Shown in pieces: positions 52,831 to 64,000 of a stretch of DNA of 64,000 nucleotides. The stretch is from Candidatus Saccharimonadota bacterium (GTDB taxonomy: Bacteria; Patescibacteriota; Saccharimonadia; Saccharimonadales; Saccharimonadaceae). The notes beneath the pieces were generated by a model. The model was given only the letters and a program-made list of their open reading frames with translations, was not told the origin of the DNA and did not search any database. The translations under genes and the position numbers were made by a program. Each line of letters starts with the position of its first letter. Position 1 is the stretch's first letter. The stretch covers positions 124,001 through 188,000 of the forward strand of contig JAFRLS010000034.1 of NCBI GenBank assembly GCA_017431105.1, in the 5' to 3' direction.

Positions 52831-53253
52831 ATGAGAAAGTTTTTGAGAGTTATTTTACCAATATTAATATGTGGCGTTTTTGCGGTCGCAATGGTAGCGA
52901 ACGTGTCGGCGTTGACTTTGCAAGAAGGTGCGGAGGCCGCACGATGTGATGGTTGTCCGACAGATTTGTTTGGCAATACTGGCGTGTTTCGCCAAGTGAC
53001 TAATACGATTCTTTATATTGTTGGTATTATTGCTGTTATTATGTTAATCATTGGCGGTATTAAGTATGTGGTTTCTGGTGGTGATTCTAAAAAGGTGACT
53101 GATGCAAAAAATACGGTGCTCTATGCAATTATTGGCTTAGTTGTATGTTTCTTGGCATTTGCGATTGTAAACTTTGTAATTTCGGCGTTGCCAGCTTCTA
53201 ATGAAGCTGAGTCTGAGGCGGCGTCATTGATCCAAGCTGCTTATTGCAAGTAA
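52831..53253 (+). CDS. VirB2/TrbC-like pilin protein (copy 1)
   Basis: The 140-aa protein has a signal peptide (about 1-27, ending VSA-LTLQ), a short exposed region with CDGC, and two transmembrane helices. The helices are separated by a cytoplasmic SGGDSKKVTDAKNTV loop. This hydrophobic hairpin with the S-x-GD-xx-K loop is shared by the proteins at 54561, 54947 and 55396. In T4SS such proteins form the pilus or a surface filament. TATAAT at 52819-52824 is 6 nt before the ATG; the GTG at 52825 is rejected as start. The end overlaps the convergent comF gene by 30 bp. Confidence 0.88.
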   Translation: MRKFLRVILPILICGVFAVAMVANVSALTLQEGAEAARCDGCPTDLFGNTGVFRQVTNTILYIVGIIAVIMLIIGGIKYVVSGGDSKKVTDAKNTVLYAIIGLVVCFLAFAIVNFVISALPASNEAESEAASLIQAAYCK

Positions 53254-53886
53254 TACGACGACGATTTTGGAAACTCCAGCTTGCTGGAGTTTTTTGACGG
53301 CAGCTTTCATGCTGGCGCCGGTGGTCCAAACATCGTCTAGTAAAATATAAGTGATGTTAGAGTCGACCTTGGTCTTATTGGAAATAAAATAGGCAGATTT
53401 GGCTTGGGCGAGGCGAGTTTTGCGATTTGCGCCAACCTGGACAGTGTTTTTATTACGGATGAGAATTTTTTGGACTTTTAAATGGCGAATTTTGGCAAGG
53501 TGCTTAGCAAGAAGAAGCGTATGGTCTAAACCGCGAGCGCGAATATGCTGTGATACGGTAGGAAGAGGAACGACGATTGAATTTGGCGGGAAATCCGGGA
53601 GGGAAGCGTTTAAGAGTTCGGCGAGTTTGGTGGCGAGAGCGCGAGTGGAATTATATTTAAAGTCGTGAATTAGTGTATCTAAAAGACCAGAACGCTGATC
53701 TATGGTATAGACAGAAGGAAACTTTTTAGGTAGATTTTTGAGATTAGGTGTAGAACGTTGTTTAATTATGTTATTTTTACAACAGTCACAAAGGATTGTG
53801 CCGAGACATCCACAACCCCTACAGGAGTGGGGGGCGATGAGGTCTAGAGGGTTTAAAATTGTTGTGTTTTTTACAATAAAATTCAT
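53224..53886 (-). CDS. ComF family phosphoribosyltransferase-like protein
   Basis: The 220-aa protein has an N-terminal zinc-ribbon, CRGCGCLGTILCDCC (near 18-32). A C-terminal PRTase domain contains VPLPTVSQHIRARGLDHTLLLAKHLAK and the PRPP loop ITYILLDDVWTTGASM. ComF proteins (Bacillus ComFC, Haemophilus ComF) are needed for natural DNA uptake. The start at 53886 is chosen; a 16-codon extension lies across the hsp20 promoter. The final 30 bp overlap the convergent pilin gene. Competence in this organism is inferred only from this family. Confidence 0.9.
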   Translation of the reverse strand: MNFIVKNTTILNPLDLIAPHSCRGCGCLGTILCDCCKNNIIKQRSTPNLKNLPKKFPSVYTIDQRSGLLDTLIHDFKYNSTRALATKLAELLNASLPDFPPNSIVVPLPTVSQHIRARGLDHTLLLAKHLAKIRHLKVQKILIRNKNTVQVGANRKTRLAQAKSAYFISNKTKVDSNITYILLDDVWTTGASMKAAVKKLQQAGVSKIVVVLLAISSLDQ

Positions 53887-53893
53887 ATTTCTC

Positions 53894-53922
53894 TTGATTT
53901 TACTACTGGGATGCTTTATAAT
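53894..53922 (+). promoter_or_regulatory. Sigma70-type promoter of hsp20
   Basis: TTGATT at 53894-53899 and TATAAT at 53917-53922 have 17-bp spacing and lead to a ~22-nt leader with GGAGG (53942-53946) before the ATG at 53951. No CIRCE-like repeat is seen here, so its control differs from groESL. Confidence 0.7.
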
Positions 53923-53950
53923 AAAGCATAACAATATAAGTGGAGGAAAT

Positions 53951-54445
53951 ATGGCTCGTACAAACAGTGACGATTTGCTGATGGAGGATGATCTCGCCGC
54001 TGCTTTCTTGGGAGGCGATGAAGAAGTCGTGGCCCCAAAAGAGGCGGAGGAAGAAGAAGTTCCTCAAGAATCTAGCGAACCAGTAGAAGATGAGTGGGAA
54101 AATGCCGACGATTTCCCAGGACAACTCGCTGTAGATGTCTACGAAACCGCCGATAAACTAGTAGTTAAGGCTCGGACTGCCGGTATATCGAAATCTGACC
54201 TCGATGTTAGTATTTCCGACAATATTTTGACGATTTCTGGTGTGCTTTCTGGTGGTGAAGATGAGCAAACAACTAGGTGGCATATCCAAGAATGTTATTG
54301 GGGTGAGTTTTCCCGTACGATTGCTTTGCCGGTGCAAGTACGTGAAGATGAGAATAGCGTGAAAGCTGAGCTTAAAGATGGTGTATTAACGATTACCTTC
54401 GAAAAGGAAAAGGCTGAAGCGCCAAAGAAGATTGCGATCCAATAA
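53951..54445 (+). CDS. Hsp20/alpha-crystallin small heat-shock protein
   Basis: Small heat-shock proteins hold unfolding proteins in large oligomers. The 164-aa protein has a very acidic N-terminal arm (about 15-55, with EAEEEEVPQESSEPVEDEWEN). The alpha-crystallin domain spans about 57-155, with VDVYETADKLVVKARTAGISKSDLDVSI, the NILTISG strand and the signature AELKDGVLTITFEKE. The start at 53951 is fixed by GGAGG 4 nt upstream; the longer open frame extends back through comF and the promoter. A terminator follows. Confidence 0.93.
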   Translation: MARTNSDDLLMEDDLAAAFLGGDEEVVAPKEAEEEEVPQESSEPVEDEWENADDFPGQLAVDVYETADKLVVKARTAGISKSDLDVSISDNILTISGVLSGGEDEQTTRWHIQECYWGEFSRTIALPVQVREDENSVKAELKDGVLTITFEKEKAEAPKKIAIQ

Positions 54446-54464
54446 AAGTTCTACAAGGATAGAT

Positions 54465-54494
54465 AAGTCGTTCCTGCTTAGGAGCGACTTTTTT
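54465..54494 (+). terminator. Rho-independent terminator of hsp20
   Basis: AAGTCGTTCC (54465-54474) pairs with GGAGCGACTT (54481-54490) including one G-U, around TGCTTA, followed by TTTT. It lies about 20 bp after the hsp20 stop. Confidence 0.85.
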
Positions 54495-54515
54495 GAGCGT
54501 TATTTGTCTTGGTAA

Positions 54516-54547
54516 AAAAATATCCCTCGTAAAGGAGGGATATTTTT
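54516..54547. terminator. Bidirectional terminator between hsp20 and pilin genes
   Basis: AAAAATATCCCTC (54516-54528) pairs perfectly with GAGGGATATTTTT (54535-54547), loop GTAAAG. A- and T-runs on both flanks allow use on either strand, in particular for the leftward pilin operon ending at 54561. Confidence 0.8.
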
Positions 54548-54560
54548 ATTAAAGAATCTA

Positions 54561-54857
54561 TTATTGATTAATGGCGCCAATGACGAAGTTGGTAATGGCG
54601 AAGGCAAGGACACAAATAACCATGCCGATTATGCCATAGAGAATGATATCCTTAGCTTTTTTGACTTTGCCAGCATCGCCAGAAGAAGTCATATAATTAA
54701 TACCACCAATGATGATAAGGATGACACATACTATGCCGAGCATACCGATTACAGCGTTGATGATGTTCGTCACGGTTTTTTCAATGTCGCCGGAATCACC
54801 ATTAGCTAAATTGTTTATTTGCGTTTTTGTCGCTAGCGTTATTAGAGTTTCTTTCAT
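54561..54857 (-). CDS. VirB2/TrbC-like pilin protein (copy 2)
   Basis: The 98-aa protein is the shortest of the set. A polar N-terminus of about 28 residues without an obvious signal peptide is followed by two transmembrane helices (about 30-55 and 70-93). The loop is SSGDAGKVKKAKDII. The core is very close to the copy at 54947 (identical SSGDAGKVKKAKD), suggesting recent duplication. It starts after an AAAGG Shine-Dalgarno and is the last of three leftward pilin-like genes. Confidence 0.88.
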   Translation of the reverse strand: MKETLITLATKTQINNLANGDSGDIEKTVTNIINAVIGMLGIVCVILIIIGGINYMTSSGDAGKVKKAKDIILYGIIGMVICVLAFAITNFVIGAINQ

Positions 54858-54946
54858 GATTGCCTTTACTTAATTTAATTTGATTTTAACATTTTTTAAA
54901 AGAATGTACAAGTGGTATTTATTATGTTTTGTTTGAGGTTGCTTTG

Positions 54947-55375
54947 TTATGGCGTGCTTGTACTATTAGTCGTAGAGTTGGATTCATTGATGGCGTTAAT
55001 AGCAAAGTTAGCGATAGCGAAGGAGAGTGCGCATACGGCAAGACCAATGCAGGCATAAAGAATTGTATCTTTAGCTTTTTTGACTTTGCCAGCATCGCCA
55101 GAAGAGGTCATATAGCCAACGCCACCGATGACGATAAATATAACTGCAACTAGACCTAGCATGCCTATAATGGCGTTTATAATATTTATAACGACAGAGT
55201 CTATGGCTTGAGTACTAGCTCCATCGCAGCCGGCAGCGTCCTTAACTGCTTGTGGGACATTGCAATCGGTATCGCAAACGCTTTTGCAATCTGCATAAAC
55301 TGGGCTTAGCATAGTGATGGCTGGTATAAATATAGCCAACATAACTATGATGATTTTAGTGATTTTAGATTTCAT
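54947..55375 (-). CDS. VirB2/TrbC-like pilin protein (copy 3)
   Basis: The 142-aa protein has a signal peptide (about 1-28, ending VYA-DCKS) and a Cys-rich exposed segment with CKSVCDTDC and AAGCDG. The two-helix pilin core follows with the SSGDAGKVKKAKDTI loop. A Ser/Thr/Asn-rich tail ends STTNSTSTP. The four or five extracellular cysteines differ from copy 2 and suggest a disulfide-stabilised surface part. A strong AAAGGAGGA Shine-Dalgarno precedes the start, 20 bp downstream of the tandem copy. Confidence 0.88.
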   Translation of the reverse strand: MKSKITKIIIVMLAIFIPAITMLSPVYADCKSVCDTDCNVPQAVKDAAGCDGASTQAIDSVVINIINAIIGMLGLVAVIFIVIGGVGYMTSSGDAGKVKKAKDTILYACIGLAVCALSFAIANFAINAINESNSTTNSTSTP

Positions 55376-55395
55376 ATTCCTCCTTTGTTTTTAAA

Positions 55396-56112
55396 CTATG
55401 GTGTAGGCGTCGTGCCATTACTAATAATGCCAGATACGACTGAGACGATGATTTCGGATAAACCAACGATGGCAAGGCCTATAAGTGCATAAGTTATGGT
55501 GTTTTTGGACTTTTGGAGTTTATTGGCGTCACCTGAGGAGGTTATGTAACCGACACCACCAATTACTAAGAATATTGCGGAAACCACGCCAGCAATGCCG
55601 ATCACCCAGCCGACGAGATTTGTGACGAGAGTTTCGGGGGCACTATTAATACAGGCAGAATTATCCGATGCACAATCTGCAAGACTGGTATCGCCAATTA
55701 AGGCTATGCGAATAGCTCCTAAGATTATGGTAGATAAAGTAACGATGGCGAGGCCGATGAAGGCGTGAGTGAGGGTTTTTTTGCCAGAAGAAACTTTATT
55801 TGGGTCGCCGGAGGAGAACATATATAAATAACCGCCATAGATGACGTAACCGATTACTAGGTACGCCGCCACGACGCTAATATCTAGAAGTATATTGGTA
55901 GCTATTTTCCATATATTAGCCGCCAATTCTTTTTCGCTTGTTGGCGTTTCAACATCGCAGTCCCAAGAGGTGAGACCTAAAAAATTAGGGCAAGGATCGC
56001 CGTTTATGCGATTGTCGGCGTATGCTGGTGTTTTATTAGCTATGTTTATTAATGTGAAAGTAGATATTAGTATGGCTGCAAATACGAGTAGTTTTTTCAA
56101 AAAATTTTTCAT
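55396..56112 (-). CDS. Tandem-duplicated VirB2/TrbC-like pilin protein (copy 4)
   Basis: The 238-aa protein has a signal peptide (about 1-32, ending AYA-DNR). Two consecutive pilin-like helix hairpins follow. The first loop is FSSGDPNKVSSGKKTL (about 100-115) and the second TSSGDANKLQKSKNTI (about 190-205), giving four transmembrane helices. Between them lies an exposed segment with CASDNSACINS. The duplicated form looks like an intragenic fusion of two pilin units and may cap or anchor a filament. It is first of the leftward three-gene set. Confidence 0.87.
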   Translation of the reverse strand: MKNFLKKLLVFAAILISTFTLINIANKTPAYADNRINGDPCPNFLGLTSWDCDVETPTSEKELAANIWKIATNILLDISVVAAYLVIGYVIYGGYLYMFSSGDPNKVSSGKKTLTHAFIGLAIVTLSTIILGAIRIALIGDTSLADCASDNSACINSAPETLVTNLVGWVIGIAGVVSAIFLVIGGVGYITSSGDANKLQKSKNTITYALIGLAIVGLSEIIVSVVSGIISNGTTPTP

Positions 56113-56257: not shown

Positions 56258-59200
56258 ATGATAGCAAAAAGATTTTCAAAAAATCGTTTAATAAAGACCA
56301 TTTTTGGTTGTCTTTTTGCTATTGTAAGCTTGTTTTCATTGGCTGCACCTGCGGGTATAGTATATGCTGATGAAGAGCCTGTGGAAGAACCAGTACATAT
56401 TGAGCTTGGCACGGATGCAGATAGAACTACACATGAAACGGAAGGGGTTGTTGAGAAAAAACCAGAGACAGGAGCTTCTTGTGAAGACAGTTTAGGTGAA
56501 TTGGGGTGGTGGGTATGTCCACAAACTGGCAAGATTGCTAAGGCAGTGGATTGGCTATACGATAAGATAGAGGATATTTTAGTAATTAATCCGGTAGAGG
56601 CTAAGGATGGTTCGCCGATTTATGAAATCTGGAAATATGCAAGAGGAATTACTAACATAATATTTATTATATTCTTGTTAGTGGTGATCTATTCACAATT
56701 AACGGGCGTAGGTATTTCTAATTATGGGATTAAGAAGGTGCTGCCTAAGTTAATCGTGACGGCGATTTTGGTGAATTTAAGCTTTATTATTTGTTCTTTG
56801 GCGGTGGATGTTTCGAATATTGTTGGTGATAGTATTAGAGGGGTGTTTACGGCGATTGAAGAAACGACTTTGACGAATTTTCAGGTGACTGACGATATGC
56901 GTGTAACGTTGGCAGAGATGTATTCGGCGTTGGCGGGTGGAGAAGCACTAGCAATTGGCGCAGCTTTTATTGGGTTTGAAACTGGGGCAATTTGGATGTT
57001 AATACCAGTGGTGCTTGGGGCAATAGTAGCAGTAGCTTCTGGTTTAATCACGATTGCGCTCCGTCAGGCAGTGGTGATACTTTTGATTATGATTGCACCA
57101 CTTGCAATTGTGGCTTATATGTTACCGAATACCGAACAATGGTTTAAAAAATGGAAACAACTCTTTACGAAGATGTTGGTATTTTATCCAATGTTTTCGC
57201 TTTTGTTTGGGGCATCTAGTTTGGCGGGGTGGGCGATTATAGCAAGTGCTAGCGATGGTTTTGGATTGTTGCTTGGTGTGGCAGTACAAATTTTCCCACT
57301 GTTTTTCTCATGGAATTTGATGAAGATGTCTGGCACATTCTTAGGCACGGTCAACGCGAAAATTCGGAATTTGGCGGCGAAACCGCTTGCTTCGAATCGA
57401 GCATGGGCAGAATCGCGTCGCATGAATAGAAGAGCAAACACTTTGGCAAATGGGATTACTCCGTCTGCTGGGTTGATGCGATATATGGAAAAAAGGCGCG
57501 CGTTAAGAGAAGAGGATACGAAGAATGCTGCGATGATTACTTCTGGCAGGACAACGATGTATGTACAACGAAAGATTGCAGACAGTAAGATTGGAGATAT
57601 GGAAAGCTCTTCTAAAAGGACGTCGCGCTATACGCGTAATGCTAAATTGGCACGGAATTATTCATTAAAGGAGAAGAACGCAGTTTCGCACACTGAACAC
57701 GTGTTAAATAATTATAACAAGTATTTCGATCATGGGAGTCTTGATGAAAGGATTGGCAAACAAGCTCAAGATGCCTGGATTGATTACGGGCGTGCAGCGT
57801 ATCTGAAAGATATTGACGAAGAAAACGATATTAATTTCTTGGTTGATAGATACCTAAAGATTAACGAACGTGACGAAAATAATAATCCTAAATTTGAAGA
57901 CGAGTTTAATAAATATATCAGATCTGTTACTGGGCCAAATGGTGAACAACGTTTGATGGCTAAGATTATTGCACAGGCAGCAAAGGTTGAATCTAAACAA
58001 CGAGCTGAATTCAATATCATGTATGCAAAGTGGGGGCACAATGGTTATAATAAAAGGGCTTTTCGTGATTGGATTGTTGGATATAAGACTAATGATGATG
58101 GTTGGGCAGTAGATGAAAATGGCAAACGTCTACTTGTTTTAGGCAAGGATGGTAAGCCAATAAAAGACGAAAATGGTAATAATGTGCCGTTAGAGGTTGT
58201 ACAAGGTGATGCTCTCACGAAGGCTCCAGAACGTTTAGTGCTTTATGATAAAAGAGATGAAAATGGGTTGTATTATGACTTTAAGGATCAAAATGGCAAT
58301 ATTATAGCAAGAGTTCATCGTGGTATTGGCGATGATGGCAAAAATCATGATGATGCAGCGTTTATAAAAGAGACTCTTTCGAATTACGATATCCCAATTG
58401 CAGACCCTATCAACAATATTTATTCTATTCTTGCTGGTGTGAAAGCATGGGATGGCAAAGAAGGTGAGCGTGGAGATATTAATGTTTTGAATGGCCATAG
58501 TGATATTGGTCTTGCTAGGTATAGCACTACGATTGGACGTGCTATGAAGGAGTATAAAGGGAATGCAGCATGGGCTGGCTCGATGTTTAATTCTGGTATT
58601 GGCAATCGCCAAATCAAGAACTCTTCACAGCATGCAATCTGGGTATTGGATAGTATTGTAAAAACATTGAAGCCAGGAGCGTTTAATACGCAAAACCCAG
58701 CTTCGGTTGAATATGTGAGATCGATTTTGGATCCAAATAATTGGAAAGAAATTTTTACGGAAAAAGAATTGATAAATGCCGTGAATATTAATAACAAGCT
58801 TTATGGTGGTGAAAATTGGAAATATGATGAAGAAGGGAACGTTGTGCGTCGTCCGGATGGTGAGATTGACTATGAAACAGTGCCGAATCCAACTTATGAA
58901 CAACGTTTGAACACTTTGAAGCGTAAACTTTTGATTCCGGCGATGCAAAAAATATTGCCAGCATTTGATAGGCTCAGGACAAGCAATACTGCGGATAATC
59001 AGAAACCTGGTACTGCAGATGAGCAATACAAGTTCTTGAAGATGGTTCAAGACAGATGGGAACATAACCCAACGATTCCGTTTGATCCAACACTAGTTGA
59101 TCAGGATCTTCAATCTGAGGCGCGAGCTTTCCGTAAAAGAAAGCATGATAAAGATGGCAATTTAATATATGATTCTGCATCTGATGATAGGGCTCCTGAT

Positions 59201-59401
59201 AATCTTCTAGAGTCATTAAGAACAGCCTACGATAGAGCTATGACGCCAGAAGACTTGAGAAGCGAAATATTCGCTATATTAAGAAGTAATGATAGATATA
59301 GTAGAGCATTGATGCGGTTTGACGAACTATGCAATGAAAATCCTGATGCAACGATGCAGGAAATTAGTAACTGGTTTAACGACTTAGACGTTTTAGTATA
59401 A
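56258..59401 (+). CDS. VirB6/TrbL-like T4SS membrane protein
   Basis: The 1047-aa protein has a signal peptide (about 1-32, ending VYA-DEEP) and a short exposed region to about residue 125 with CEDSLGELGWWVCP. About six to seven transmembrane helices follow (about 128-360), including SQLTGVGISNYGIKKVLPK and IMIAPLAIVAYMLPNTEQWFKKW. A ~680-residue basic, helical cytoplasmic tail follows, with a calcium-loop-like series such as DEDG/DENG repeats around 610-680. VirB6 proteins line the inner-membrane channel of T4SS. It is the first gene in the unit leading to PrgI and VirB4. Confidence 0.88.
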   Translation: MIAKRFSKNRLIKTIFGCLFAIVSLFSLAAPAGIVYADEEPVEEPVHIELGTDADRTTHETEGVVEKKPETGASCEDSLGELGWWVCPQTGKIAKAVDWLYDKIEDILVINPVEAKDGSPIYEIWKYARGITNIIFIIFLLVVIYSQLTGVGISNYGIKKVLPKLIVTAILVNLSFIICSLAVDVSNIVGDSIRGVFTAIEETTLTNFQVTDDMRVTLAEMYSALAGGEALAIGAAFIGFETGAIWMLIPVVLGAIVAVASGLITIALRQAVVILLIMIAPLAIVAYMLPNTEQWFKKWKQLFTKMLVFYPMFSLLFGASSLAGWAIIASASDGFGLLLGVAVQIFPLFFSWNLMKMSGTFLGTVNAKIRNLAAKPLASNRAWAESRRMNRRANTLANGITPSAGLMRYMEKRRALREEDTKNAAMITSGRTTMYVQRKIADSKIGDMESSSKRTSRYTRNAKLARNYSLKEKNAVSHTEHVLNNYNKYFDHGSLDERIGKQAQDAWIDYGRAAYLKDIDEENDINFLVDRYLKINERDENNNPKFEDEFNKYIRSVTGPNGEQRLMAKIIAQAAKVESKQRAEFNIMYAKWGHNGYNKRAFRDWIVGYKTNDDGWAVDENGKRLLVLGKDGKPIKDENGNNVPLEVVQGDALTKAPERLVLYDKRDENGLYYDFKDQNGNIIARVHRGIGDDGKNHDDAAFIKETLSNYDIPIADPINNIYSILAGVKAWDGKEGERGDINVLNGHSDIGLARYSTTIGRAMKEYKGNAAWAGSMFNSGIGNRQIKNSSQHAIWVLDSIVKTLKPGAFNTQNPASVEYVRSILDPNNWKEIFTEKELINAVNINNKLYGGENWKYDEEGNVVRRPDGEIDYETVPNPTYEQRLNTLKRKLLIPAMQKILPAFDRLRTSNTADNQKPGTADEQYKFLKMVQDRWEHNPTIPFDPTLVDQDLQSEARAFRKRKHDKDGNLIYDSASDDRAPDNLLESLRTAYDRAMTPEDLRSEIFAILRSNDRYSRALMRFDELCNENPDATMQEISNWFNDLDVLV

Positions 59402-59480: not shown

Positions 59481-60371
59481 ATGGCGGAATATAAGGTGCC
59501 TCAGGATGTTGAGGCAGACGATAAGCTTATCGGGCCGTTTAGTTTTCGGCAGTTTGTTTATCTTTTGATTGCGGCTGGTTTGATTGCGTTAGCCGTAGGT
59601 CTTTTTAATATTTTTCCGCTACTTACGATTATCCCGGTTCCGTTTGTATTGTTTTTTCTGATATTAGCTTTACCACTTAAAAAGGATCAGCCGATGGAGA
59701 CTTATCTTGCGGCGATAGTGTCTTATTATTTGAAGCCACATAACCGACTTTGGACGCCAGGACAAAGAGAATCAACAATTTTGATTACGGCACCGAAGAT
59801 TGTGGAGGAGGTACGTACAAGAGATATCTCGCAAGAAGAAGCAACACATAGATTGTCATTTTTGGCAGATATCGTAGATACGGAGGGGCAAGCAATTAAA
59901 GGTGCAATTCCGAATTCAATGCGTGAGGAAATAGTGGCGGAAGCGAGCGCGACAAACGATATGTTCGATGACTATAAGGCAGTTACGTTAAATGAGACGA
60001 TTGAACAGAATAAAATCGAGCGGCATGAGGAAGTAATACGTGAGATGCGTGAGGCGATAAACCGCAACGAAAATATTGGTGTTGCTGGTGCAGTAATACA
60101 AAATGACCATGGGAAGATAGAAACGCCAGCCGTAGAGGCGGTGAGTATGAAAGCGCCAAGGCCAGAACAAATGACAGAACCAGCGGAAGAACATAGTGCA
60201 GTGATAGTAATGCCAGAACCAACTTCGCAAGAAAAAAAGCCGACAAATCCGCTGAAACCTAGTATAATGGAGCTAGCAAACAATTCTGATTTTACTGTCG
60301 CGACGATTGCAAAAGAAGCTAACCGTATAAAGAGAAAGGACGATGGCGAAGTTTTTATATCGCTGCACTAA
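59481..60371 (+). CDS. PrgI family T4SS protein with long cytoplasmic tail
   Basis: PrgI-like small membrane proteins accompany VirB4 in Gram-positive-type conjugation systems. Residues 1-100 of this 296-aa protein match the family: YKVPQDVEADDKLIGPFSFRQFVYLL, two helices at about 26-68, then YLAAIVSYYLKPHNRLWTPGQR. An additional ~190-residue polar tail, not usual for ~100-aa PrgI proteins, is rich in Glu, Ala and Pro and may bind other T4SS parts. TATAAT at 59466-59471 is 9 nt from the ATG, so a separate near-leaderless start exists within the operon. Confidence 0.88.
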   Translation: MAEYKVPQDVEADDKLIGPFSFRQFVYLLIAAGLIALAVGLFNIFPLLTIIPVPFVLFFLILALPLKKDQPMETYLAAIVSYYLKPHNRLWTPGQRESTILITAPKIVEEVRTRDISQEEATHRLSFLADIVDTEGQAIKGAIPNSMREEIVAEASATNDMFDDYKAVTLNETIEQNKIERHEEVIREMREAINRNENIGVAGAVIQNDHGKIETPAVEAVSMKAPRPEQMTEPAEEHSAVIVMPEPTSQEKKPTNPLKPSIMELANNSDFTVATIAKEANRIKRKDDGEVFISLH

Positions 60372-60374
60372 ATT

Positions 60375-61244
60375 ATGAATCCACAACAACCACAACAAAT
60401 TTTGCCAAATCAGAACCAGTCGCAAGCACCACAGATGATAGTCCCAGGCGACGGGCAGAATAGGATAGCCATGAACGATCCTAGCACTCAGAATTTGGGT
60501 ATGGTAGCAATGGCGGCGCAACAGGCCGCACCGACATCTCCGAATAAAGAAGTGCCGACTTCTACGCAGGCAACTTTGTTGATATCTGAGTTACGTGATA
60601 ACGTAGTAATTATGAAAGATGGCTCTTTTAGGGCTGTGGTGGCCTGCAAATCGATAAACTTTGATTTAATGTCTGACGTAGAACGTGAAGCAGTAGAATA
60701 TTCGTATCAAAATTTCTTAAATTCGTTAAAATTTACAACGCAAATATTGGTGCGTTCACAAAGAGTTGATATTGGGCCGTATATTGAGAAATTGTCTGAG
60801 ATTAGGCGCAACAATGATAATATGCTGCTTGGCGTCTTGATGGATGATTACATTAACTTTATTGATGTTCTGTCGCAAGAAGCGAATATCATGGATAAGG
60901 CATTCTTTATTGTAGTACCGTATTATTCGTCGCCGGATGCAGAGAAAGTATTGCAACAAACTAAGAATTTCTTTAAATCTTTTTCGAAATCGAAAGCGCC
61001 AGAAGTGACAAGAATTGATCGGGCGACTTACGATAAGGCTTTGTCGGAGCTTGCGAATAGAGTGGATTCTGTAATGTCTGGGTTGTTCCAAATTGGTATG
61101 CATTCAGTTAGGTTAAACACTAGGGAATTAGCGGAGCTTTATTATAATTTCAATAATCCAGATACTGCAGTAAGAGAGCCTTTGGTTGATTTTTCCAAAC
61201 TTGCGACAATGTATGTAAGAAAGGGAGAGAAGCAAAATGGGTAA
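60375..61244 (+). CDS. TraC/VirB4-N-terminal-like T4SS protein
   Basis: The 289-aa protein has a Gln/Pro/Asn-rich start (about 1-65), then a folded region with TQATLLISELRDNVVIMKDGSFRAVVAC. That segment resembles the N-terminal domain of VirB4/TraC ATPases. Further on it has SLKFTTQILVRSQRVDIGPYIEKL and FFIVVPYYSSPDAEKVL. It lacks Walker motifs. The gene lies 3 bp after prgI and overlaps virB4 by 8 bp, so it probably acts as a separate N-terminal partner of VirB4. That role is inferred. Confidence 0.82.
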   Translation: MNPQQPQQILPNQNQSQAPQMIVPGDGQNRIAMNDPSTQNLGMVAMAAQQAAPTSPNKEVPTSTQATLLISELRDNVVIMKDGSFRAVVACKSINFDLMSDVEREAVEYSYQNFLNSLKFTTQILVRSQRVDIGPYIEKLSEIRRNNDNMLLGVLMDDYINFIDVLSQEANIMDKAFFIVVPYYSSPDAEKVLQQTKNFFKSFSKSKAPEVTRIDRATYDKALSELANRVDSVMSGLFQIGMHSVRLNTRELAELYYNFNNPDTAVREPLVDFSKLATMYVRKGEKQNG

Positions 61245-63066
61245 GAAGAAAATGACGCCAGCAGAAATTGCGGCACAAGCCGAAGCGATGGAGGCGGCGG
61301 AGATTCAACAGGCGTTTGAGCAGGGTACTAATACTTTAAGAGATTTAATTTCTCCGTCGGCAATCGAGATTCATTCAGATTATTTCAGATTAGGGACAAA
61401 ATACGGCCGAACATTATACATATATGGTTATCCTCGCTCAATATATACGGGCTGGATCTCGCCAATTATTAATATTGATGAAGTAGTTGATGTGTCGATG
61501 TATATCTACCCAGTGGAGTCGGCAGTAGTGATGAAGAACTTACGTACGAAAGTGACGCAACTTGAGGCCTCGATGAATCTAAATGCAGAAAAAGGCAAAG
61601 TACGTGACCCGGAGCTAGAAGCGGCGATTAATGATGCCGAGGATCTACGCGATCAATTGCAGGTGGGGGCACAGAGGTTTTTCCGTTTTGGGCTTTATAT
61701 AACGTTATGGGCGGATTCTTTAGATGAGTTAAAATTTGTACAACAGAAAATCGAGACGATTTTTGGCCAGCAGATGATTTTTTCGAAAGTAGCAAATTCA
61801 CAACAGGAGCAGGGACTTAACTCGACAATGCCACAATGTACTGATCAGCTGCAGATTCGACGCAATATGAATACGGGTGCAATTTCGACCTCATTCCCAT
61901 TTACATCGGCGGATTTGACGCAGGATAAAGGTATTCTGTATGGCATAAACATGCATAATAATGGATTGGTGATTTTCGATAGATTTAGTTTGGAAAATGC
62001 TAACATGGTGGTGTTTGCAAAGTCTGGTGCTGGTAAATCTTTTAGCGTGAAGCTGGAAGCTTTACGGTCAATGATGGTAGGAAGTGAAATTTTAATTATT
62101 GACCCTGAGAATGAGTACCAGAAGTTATGTGATGCGGTGGGTGGATCATATATTAGATTATCGTTAAACTCAGACGTAAGAATTAATCCGTTTGATTTGC
62201 CAAAGGTGGTGGATTCGGAAGATGCGAATGATGCATTGCGTGCAAATTTGGTAACTTTACACGGTTTATTTAGGTTAATGCTTGGCGGTAACCAAGTAAC
62301 AGCTGGTGGCCAGGTAGTGCCGGCCTTGACGGCTAACGAAGAGGCGGATCTAGATCAGGCTTTGATCGATACATATGCGAGAGCCGGAATTACTTCAGAT
62401 CCTTTGACTCATCAATCCACGCCGCCAACGATTTTGAATTTGTATGATACTTTGCTCCATATGGAGGGTACAGGACCGCAATTGGCGCAGAGATTGCGTA
62501 AATATACAACCGGTACGTTTGCGGGGATTTTTTCACAACAGTCGAACGTAGATATTAACAATCAGATGGTAGTATTCAATATTCGCGACCTTGAGGATGA
62601 GCTTAGGCCAGTGGCGATGTATATTGTGCTTTCGCATATTTGGAATATCGTGAGAGCGGAACAGAAAAAGCGGTTACTCATCGTGGATGAAGCGTGGCAA
62701 TTAATGAAGTATGATGATTCGGCTAACTTTTTGTTTTCTTTGGCGAAACGTGCACGTAAATATTATTTAGGCCTAACGACGATTACGCAAGACGTAGAAG
62801 ATTTCATGAGCTCCAAAATGGGGCGGGCGATTGTAGCGAACTCATCCATGCAGCTACTACTAAAGCAGTCTGCTTCGGCAGTAGATGTGCTATCCGATGT
62901 GTTTAAATTAACCGAGGAAGAGAAACGGCGTTTGGCTAATTTCCCGGTGGGGCAGGGCTTGTTCTTCGCTGGGCAAAACCATGTACATATCCAGATAATT
63001 GCGAGCGAGACGGAAGAAGGTTTGATTACCACGAATCCAAATGTGAAACAAGGGCCGGGACAGTAA
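61237..63066 (+). CDS. virB4: VirB4-family T4SS ATPase
   Basis: VirB4 ATPases energise pilus assembly and substrate transfer. The 609-aa protein has an Ala/Glu-rich N-terminus and a mixed domain to about 240. Walker A AKSGAGKS is near 261 and the conserved IIDPENEYQKL follows. Walker B is LLIVDEAWQLMK near 479-490, then the C-terminal TTITQDVEDFM and sensor region. Overlap with the TraC-like gene (8 bp) implies coupled translation. It ends 3 bp before the lysozyme gene. Confidence 0.95.
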   Translation: MGKKKMTPAEIAAQAEAMEAAEIQQAFEQGTNTLRDLISPSAIEIHSDYFRLGTKYGRTLYIYGYPRSIYTGWISPIINIDEVVDVSMYIYPVESAVVMKNLRTKVTQLEASMNLNAEKGKVRDPELEAAINDAEDLRDQLQVGAQRFFRFGLYITLWADSLDELKFVQQKIETIFGQQMIFSKVANSQQEQGLNSTMPQCTDQLQIRRNMNTGAISTSFPFTSADLTQDKGILYGINMHNNGLVIFDRFSLENANMVVFAKSGAGKSFSVKLEALRSMMVGSEILIIDPENEYQKLCDAVGGSYIRLSLNSDVRINPFDLPKVVDSEDANDALRANLVTLHGLFRLMLGGNQVTAGGQVVPALTANEEADLDQALIDTYARAGITSDPLTHQSTPPTILNLYDTLLHMEGTGPQLAQRLRKYTTGTFAGIFSQQSNVDINNQMVVFNIRDLEDELRPVAMYIVLSHIWNIVRAEQKKRLLIVDEAWQLMKYDDSANFLFSLAKRARKYYLGLTTITQDVEDFMSSKMGRAIVANSSMQLLLKQSASAVDVLSDVFKLTEEEKRRLANFPVGQGLFFAGQNHVHIQIIASETEEGLITTNPNVKQGPGQ

Positions 63067-63069
63067 TAA

Positions 63070-64000
63070 ATGAAAGTAAAGGCAGTTTTTCAAAAATTTA
63101 TAGTAGTTGCCCTGTCTATGATATTGGTAGTTTCGTCACCGGCTTCAACTTATGCTAAGTTGTCGGCGGAAATGTTGGATATGTTTGCGCAGAATGATGT
63201 CATGTTTTATGATCCAGATGAAACCGAGAGAAATCTTTGTAGTTCTTCTAGCTCGACTGGGGATTGTTATATTGCTGGCTCGAATTGGGATGAGAGAATG
63301 TGGTCTGCTTTAAGACATGTGGGGTTTACGCCAGAACAAACAGCCGGTGTTCTTGGTAATATAGCTCACGAAGCAAATACGCCCGTAAGACAGGAAATCT
63401 CTTACAATATGGCTAGGGAGAACGGCTGTCTTACAGAAGAAGGTTTAGCATATGATATTGAAATTGATTTTACTACTGTAGAGGGAGGTTTACATCACGA
63501 TAGTTGTATGCAGAATTATTCTGACGCTTATAAAAAAGGTTCTAATGTTCAGGGTGTGGGCATTGGTCTTGCCGGATGGACGTGGCCTACTATCCGCCAG
63601 GCTTATTTGAAAATATTGACTGACCTTGGTTTGGAAAAATATTTTAAAGGCGAGGCATGGAGAACTTATGGTTCATATGCGACGGACGACGAGCTTAGAG
63701 AGGCAATAAAAAATGAAACTGGGTCGGAGGACGATTATTATGCTTTATGGTGTGCTGCCATAGGATTTATGTGGAGCGAACTAAAGGACAAAGAGTTTAT
63801 GAATCAAACAACTGTGGCTGAATATGCCGGTTGGGATGCGGCGAATTACGAGAGGTGTGCTGGTGGTTGTGAGGTGGGCGGGGACCAATATAATTTGCGT
63901 ATTGCAACTGCAGAAGAATACTATGAGAAGTATGAGGATGGCTATTTTGATGCAGTAGAGAATGGTTCTTTGCCATCCGAAATAGAATCTGTAGGTGGAG
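63070..64000 (+). CDS. Secreted phage-type lysozyme-like peptidoglycan hydrolase (cut by window edge)
   Basis: The ORF starts at ATG 63070 and stays open to the window end, so about 310 N-terminal residues are visible. A signal peptide (about 1-29, ending TYA-KLSA) is followed near residue 77 by a domain with MWSALRHVGFTPEQTAGVLGNIAHEAN and GVGIGLAGWT. This resembles the phage tail lysozyme fold (Phage_lysozyme2 type), with Glu of AHEAN as likely catalytic acid. Several Cys residues suit an exported protein. Its place directly after virB4 matches the VirB1-like wall-opening enzyme of T4SS. The C-terminus and total length are unknown. Confidence 0.85.
   Translation, partial: MKVKAVFQKFIVVALSMILVVSSPASTYAKLSAEMLDMFAQNDVMFYDPDETERNLCSSSSSTGDCYIAGSNWDERMWSALRHVGFTPEQTAGVLGNIAHEANTPVRQEISYNMARENGCLTEEGLAYDIEIDFTTVEGGLHHDSCMQNYSDAYKKGSNVQGVGIGLAGWTWPTIRQAYLKILTDLGLEKYFKGEAWRTYGSYATDDELREAIKNETGSEDDYYALWCAAIGFMWSELKDKEFMNQTTVAEYAGWDAANYERCAGGCEVGGDQYNLRIATAEEYYEKYEDGYFDAVENGSLPSEIESVGG

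Follow-up and report, generated by a model that had tools for sequence, protein, structure and literature searches.

Arrays of VirB2-like pilin genes have been described in Patescibacteria, and the accessible part of the survey reports 441 arrays with 2-11 pilin genes in 383 assemblies (PMC12102498). In S. epibionticum, the one Patescibacterium tested by transposon sequencing, the type IV secretion system (T4SS) including its pilin series is, according to the available sections of that study, essential for epibiotic growth (PMC10633639), and a review, as far as its text was available, describes six pilins of conserved structure and divergent sequence and finds the plurality of divergent pilins remarkable (PMC12857230). 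The window analysed here, a stretch of 64,000 nucleotides (nt), is part of the genome of a Candidatus Saccharimonadota bacterium (879,622 bases, 43 contigs, 95.4% complete, 7.7% contamination) and encodes four such proteins, here called pilins A to D, which probably belong to a set of about seven specialised VirB2-like subunits in a chromosomal Saccharibacterium T4SS. The locus shares Pfam family, neighbourhood and phylum with the published arrays, and S. epibionticum has a pilin array of the same kind. Earlier work already covers both the arrays of this phylum and the need for them in one cultured species (PMC12102498, PMC10633639); the apparently new contribution is comparative, namely pilin classes in a fixed order, a fusion of class 2 with class 3, and the relocation and chimeras of class 1. 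In the accessible part of the survey, neither orthologous classes nor multi-hairpin fusions nor class-1 chimeras were found mentioned (PMC12102498), and fixed classes, fusions or class-1 chimeras were likewise absent from the text consulted after searches of open-licence PMC.

Pilin A (52831..53253, forward strand, 140 residues), pilin B (54561..54857, reverse strand, 98 residues), pilin C (54947..55375, reverse strand, 142 residues) and pilin D (55396..56112, reverse strand, 238 residues) match the family PF18895 (T4SS_pilin) with 55.7, 44.9, 42.3 and, in two stretches, 63.9 bits, all above the cut-off of 26.6, which upholds the original prediction of four pilin-like genes at these places. 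The kinship to VirB2/TrbC on which it depends is borne out only in part: PF18895 is matched clearly, PF04956 (TrbC/VirB2) weakly and by three of the four proteins (A 22.4, B 22.0 and C 15.8 bits, E 0.00015 to 0.016; D was not among the matches); because these values lie below the cut-off of 27.9, the window pilins would not be filed under PF04956. The pilin-like family NF045849, named after Mbov_0395 of a mycoplasma integrative and conjugative element, is matched above its cut-off of 40 by B (54.2 bits) and D (40.6), with A and C below at 35 bits; it is a single-hairpin model of 80 positions, in contrast to the serial classes with ectodomains of Saccharibacteria. A signal peptide followed by a predicted two-helix hairpin is seen in A, C and D, and, as had been predicted, B has no evident signal peptide (hairpin from residue 29), C carries four cysteines ahead of its hairpin, and the S-x-GD-xx-K loop, read from the translations, is common to all five hairpins. 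Like the VirB2/TrbC pilins of diderm conjugation systems, these are short, predicted two-helix hairpins, for the most part with an export signal, and their genes lie beside VirB6 and VirB4, but the matches to TrbC are weak and below cut-off, and there are several dedicated classes, some of them fused and one without signal peptide. PF18895 is widespread: it was detected in 59 of 61 genomes sampled from the family, 40 of 41 from the class and 57 of 59 from the phylum, the window's genome being included each time; among 14 control genomes matches were seen in Haloferax volcanii alone.

For part of this region the label of Sec-secreted effectors has been used in TM7x, and a T4SS effector cluster of TM7x is spoken of in the accessible parts of two papers (PMC10768705, PMC12592800). 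That the window pilins are such effectors is hardly credible, as all four match a pilin family and the VirB2 arrays include, in the available text of the survey, the TM7x 'Sec secreted array' (PMC12102498).

In the GTDB family as a whole, about seven hairpin classes can be told apart, and their genes keep a fixed order. Slot models were trained on 16 arrays in which VirB6 and HSP20 enclose six single-hairpin genes, the third of them without signal peptide, together with the pilin beyond the ComF-like gene where present (108 hairpins in total); these arrays were picked for their regular layout, the remaining ones staying outside the training set. With one genome left out at a time, the class was recovered from the hairpin alone in 99 of 108 cases (16/16 for class 1, 16/16 for class 2, 15/16 for class 3, 10/16 for class 4, 15/16 for class 5, 15/16 for class 6 and 12/12 for class 7). 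The nearest hairpin in another genome shared the slot in 92 of 108 cases, compared with a mean of 15.7 and a maximum of 33 in 1000 within-genome shuffles, which overstate the significance as the genera are related, shared ancestry of the slots being exactly what they show. On these two results, the pilins have the appearance of ancient dedicated subunits and not of copies maintained for the sake of variation. The sequence of class 1, class 2 and then class 3 or a short pilin extends to other families of the order, which is also in favour of this reading. Two or more ectodomain cysteines are present in 15 of 16 class-1, 16 of 16 class-2 and 16 of 16 class-4 proteins and in none of the 16 class-3 proteins, and conservation is highest in slots 6 (0.70) and 7 (0.69) and lowest in slot 3 (0.44). 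Conserved orthologous classes, class-specific cysteine pairs, signal-peptide status and ectodomain size support, at the level of evolution, the proposal of several subunit types instead of one pilin, their division into shaft, tip and anchor being conjectural. Fixed classes would turn 'many pilins' into named, singly deletable parts, and the set suggests a structure of several dedicated parts, not copies of one, in a tiny gut bacterium from a group that lives on other bacteria.

The analogy with Bartonella and Anaplasma has led to the proposal, in the accessible text, that VirB2 arrays are a store of interchangeable variants serving antigenic or host-range variation (PMC12102498). The pilins do diverge faster than the ATPase: between the two loci of this bin, VirB4 is 93% identical, PrgI 70%, VirB6 40%, pilins B, C and D 50-58% and pilin A 73%. 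On the other hand, hairpin identity is 0.55 for the same slot across genomes and genera, 0.38 for different slots and 0.40 for paralogs within one genome, and the slot is predicted far above the shuffles, which makes a variant store unlikely. The second of these loci (L012) lies on contig C1 with the same gene order, and both arrays adjoin a tRNA-Ser(gct); of 11 genome-wide matches to PF18895, the window and contig C1 have five each, in the same order, and a lone one lies on contig C41. Because bin contamination is 7.7%, the C1 array would represent a second strain in the bin and not a second copy. The low identity of VirB6 (56258-59401 in the window, L012:5325-8810 on C1) despite the 93% identity of VirB4 is an observation in its own right, as is a putative serine-recombinase-like gene (L012:11911-14028) by pilin A and the tRNA-Ser on contig C1, accompanied by further genes that by the look of their sequence putatively belong to an integrated element.

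Pilin D, for which the original prediction proposed internal tandem duplication, indeed holds two hairpins in one chain (residues ~71-134 and ~163-226), and the motif IGLAIV-x-LS-xx-I recurs in the second helix of both. With sister models, built from 11 split arrays and tested on 42 multi-hairpin open reading frames (ORFs) of close relatives (L075-L125), hairpin 1 scores 86 bits for slot 2 and 46 for the next slot, while hairpin 2 scores 67 for slot 4, 63 for slot 3 and 44 for slot 2. In the relatives, hairpin 1 belongs to slot 2 in 42 of 42 ORFs, and hairpin 2 prefers slot 3 to slot 2 in 42 of 42 (median +31.2 bits) and slot 3 to all tail slots in 39 of 42. Hairpin 2 of pilin D would accordingly be of class 3 by its position and its relatives, not by this sequence alone, and does not appear to be a copy of hairpin 1. 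Moreover, where the genes are split in relatives, a class-2 gene abuts a class-3 gene without signal peptide at a median distance of -1 nt (31 pairs). Duplication of one hairpin is very improbable given hairpins of different classes and separate adjacent genes in that slot, and pilin D seems better explained by fusion of neighbouring class-2 (with signal peptide) and class-3 (without) genes.

Such fusions recur. Clear cases outside the window's clade are found in L016, L022, L033 and L065, with hairpin 1 at 85-96 bits for class 2 and hairpin 2 at 84-94 for class 3 and 38-52 for class 2; L012, L015, L024, L026, L074 and the window itself are less clear, and ORFs with three hairpins occur in L076, L080, L092, L096 and L074. 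Of the 80 named loci, a multi-hairpin ORF is present in 53; another 16 have pilins but no such ORF, and 11, mostly where the contig or flank ends, show no pilin. On a FastTree phylogeny of 102 loci, the fused or split state takes 7 Fitch changes (shuffled mean 32, minimum 24), split being defined by the simple rule of a short single-hairpin gene without signal peptide, a rule that takes no account of class in the outgroups. L024, L065 and L074, which are outside that tree, are additional fused tips of a smaller one, in which fused tips adjoin split sisters; on the trees, fused and split tips are interspersed. The recurrent fusion would predict which two subunits touch.

Several points weigh against a series of about seven dedicated subunits and the fusion derived from it. 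Class 4 is often mistaken for class 5, and classes fade outside the order; class models applied to other phylum-level lineages gave no recognisable order. Pilins B and C fit no single class, B scoring 101 bits for slot 6 and 97 for slot 5 with sister-array models and 90 for class 3 and 87 for class 4 with family-wide models, and C 94 for slot 6 and 89 for slot 5 and, family-wide, 82 for class 4 and 77 for class 5; B is placed as a tail class nearest slots 5/6 and C as a tail class 4 to 6. Pilin A is assigned to slot 7, the pilin beyond the ComF-like gene, by the sister-array model (126 bits, next 88), while the family-wide models put class 6 (115) above class 7 (107). The best model for hairpin 2 of pilin D is slot 4 rather than slot 3, and the fusion may be favoured merely because class 3 is without signal peptide. 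The only families matched above cut-off are PF18895 and, for two of the four proteins, NF045849. Finally, in PDB sequence profiles (A4, A5) no match with a solved structure was found, and fold searches (PDB with VIA-align for the models of both A and D, BFVD for pilin A) returned generic helical hairpins, the absence of VirB2 among the listed fold matches being uninformative.

With dedicated subunits, the class-2 signal peptide would place the ectodomain outside and the loop inside, class 3 without signal peptide could then follow in the same topology, and the fusion would hold two neighbouring subunits at a ratio of 1:1; the subunits may assemble on VirB6-PrgI-VirB4 as a mixed pilus or a short channel to contact the host bacterium. 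AlphaFold2 predicts for pilin D two long hairpins and a leader helix (predicted local distance difference test, pLDDT, 81.9; predicted template modelling score, pTM, 0.57) and for pilin A one hairpin (pLDDT 75.8, pTM 0.51), models which say nothing of subunit assembly. It is possible, if rather doubtful, that the subunits never form a pilus and instead line a membrane-embedded pore or ring beneath VirB6, or serve simply to anchor surface domains by their two helices, as a filament was not observed, class 1 anchors large ectodomains, and the multi-hairpin fusion resembles the proteolipid rings of rotary ATPases. Signal peptides and cysteine-bearing ectodomains fit exposure, without deciding the matter.

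Class 1 appears to have moved beside rpoD in this genus. The lone class-1 pilin of the genome (L013:9973-10362) lies outside the window at ~64 kb of contig C41, by rpoD, and scores 80.5 bits for class 1 with the next class at 44. A protein search for class 1 gave a match in 40 of 40 genomes of the genus; 30 loci from 30 genomes were kept, 28 of them with RpoD encoded on the same fragment, while the two remaining genomes have a different class-1 locus with RpoD. The class-1 profile matches in 60 of 60 genus genomes, in 14 of which (26 frames) a match of at least 72 bits falls within an open frame 300 or more residues long, and in the family, class and named-locus sets taken together the hairpin lies past residue 150 in 12 of 59 confidently assigned class-1 proteins. 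Fourteen of the large ORFs, from six genomes, were examined for domains. One has a Pfam match above cut-off (Abhydrolase_2, 34.9 bits, cut-off 23; L235, identical with the L076 protein), two have a GDSL lipase match below it (22.1 and 21.3 bits, cut-off 23.6) with GDS, GTND and D-x-LHP motifs present, and further matches below cut-off are NlpC/P60 in two, esterase-like in one and Big_2 in two; in 7 of the 14 no extra domain was recognised. GDSL-lipase-like domains occupy the class-1 place by rpoD in at least one genome (L233), other genomes of the genus have dispersed extra class-1 copies, and the window's genome has the short form.

In the type VI secretion system, evolved VgrG and PAAR proteins are structural subunits that bear an enzyme domain. 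Some class-1 ORFs of the genus would likewise combine a structural subunit and an enzyme domain, with no homology to those proteins, and the class 1 of the window's genome is a short pilin. We tentatively consider class 1 as a carrier subunit, the hairpin of which would be built into the T4SS pilus or channel, with an exposed part that varies and may in some genomes be an enzyme brought to the host cell wall. The cargo would be an esterase/lipase-like or NlpC/P60-like enzyme, and such an 'evolved pilin' is the boldest and a speculative reading of these sequences; the large class-1 proteins are equally well explained as plain membrane anchors. If class 1 does carry enzymes, the T4SS of an epibiont would have a means to bring hydrolases to the host surface.

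The pilin proximal to HSP20 is preceded by a spacer with a median of 68 nt (n=97), compared with -1 nt at other junctions (n=250). The long spacer is present in most arrays and in the window measures 89 nt (54858..54946, reverse strand, before pilin B). Outside the window's group, promoter-like sites (at least 10 of 12 positions) occur in 21 of 44 spacers (shuffled mean 1.3, maximum 5) and terminator-like structures in 10 of 44. Within the group, the latter are present in 1 of 28 and promoter-like sites in 3 of 28 (shuffled mean 1.06, maximum 3), which is not significant, and a promoter in the window spacer is not claimed because this count lies within the shuffled range. Codon adaptation was rejected as a proxy for expression, since every low-scoring pilin lies on the minus strand, opposite to the reference genes on the plus strand.

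Divergent from pilin D, the forward strand encodes a VirB6-like protein (56258..59401, 1047 residues, PF04610 20.3 bits, cut-off 25.9), a PrgI/VirB3-like protein (59481..60371, PF12666 44.7 bits, cut-off 27), a separate TrsD-like gene for the N-terminal part of VirB4 (60375..61244, NF041427 TrsD 31.8 bits, below the cut-off of 200) and the VirB4 ATPase (61237..63066, NF045971 384.4 bits, cut-off 325). VirB4, PrgI and VirB6 are thus found together as in monoderm T4SS of the mating-pair formation FATA (MPF-FATA) type, VirB6 itself being below cut-off, and the pilins adjoin VirB6, VirB3 and VirB4 genes as is expected for VirB2. The closest VirB4 sequences among named records are from Candidatus Saccharibacteria metagenome-assembled genomes, often of ruminant gut. 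The set had been placed directly before a VirB6-PrgI-VirB4 operon; it adjoins these genes, but not as one block, pilins B to D being divergent from VirB6 and separated from pilin A by a phosphoribosyltransferase gene (53224..53880, reverse strand; UPRTase 24.1 and Pribosyltran 18.7 bits, both below cut-off), presumably ComF-like from the look of its family, and by an HSP20 small heat-shock protein gene (53951..54445, forward strand, PF00011 69.4 bits). Both genes are conserved neighbours, and relatives have their arrays interrupted in the same way.

A T4SS cluster of a second type was noticed in L018, L019, L023, L037, L057, L061, L062, L068 and L072, where a pilin of 112-190 residues is followed by a pilin-headed ORF (mostly 426-499 residues, 144 in L068) and short genes for the N- and C-terminal parts of VirB4. 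Very large ORFs (L177, 1239 residues; L157:10646-12790, 714 residues) also bear hairpins close to the N- or C-terminus. Downstream of VirB4, the window encodes a phage-lysozyme-like and C39-peptidase-like protein (63070-63999, continuing in L014:3070-5187), followed by a CHAP protein (L014:5967-7334); this resembles S. epibionticum, in which peptidase and lysozyme genes that follow virB4 are described as essential in the accessible part of the survey (PMC12102498).

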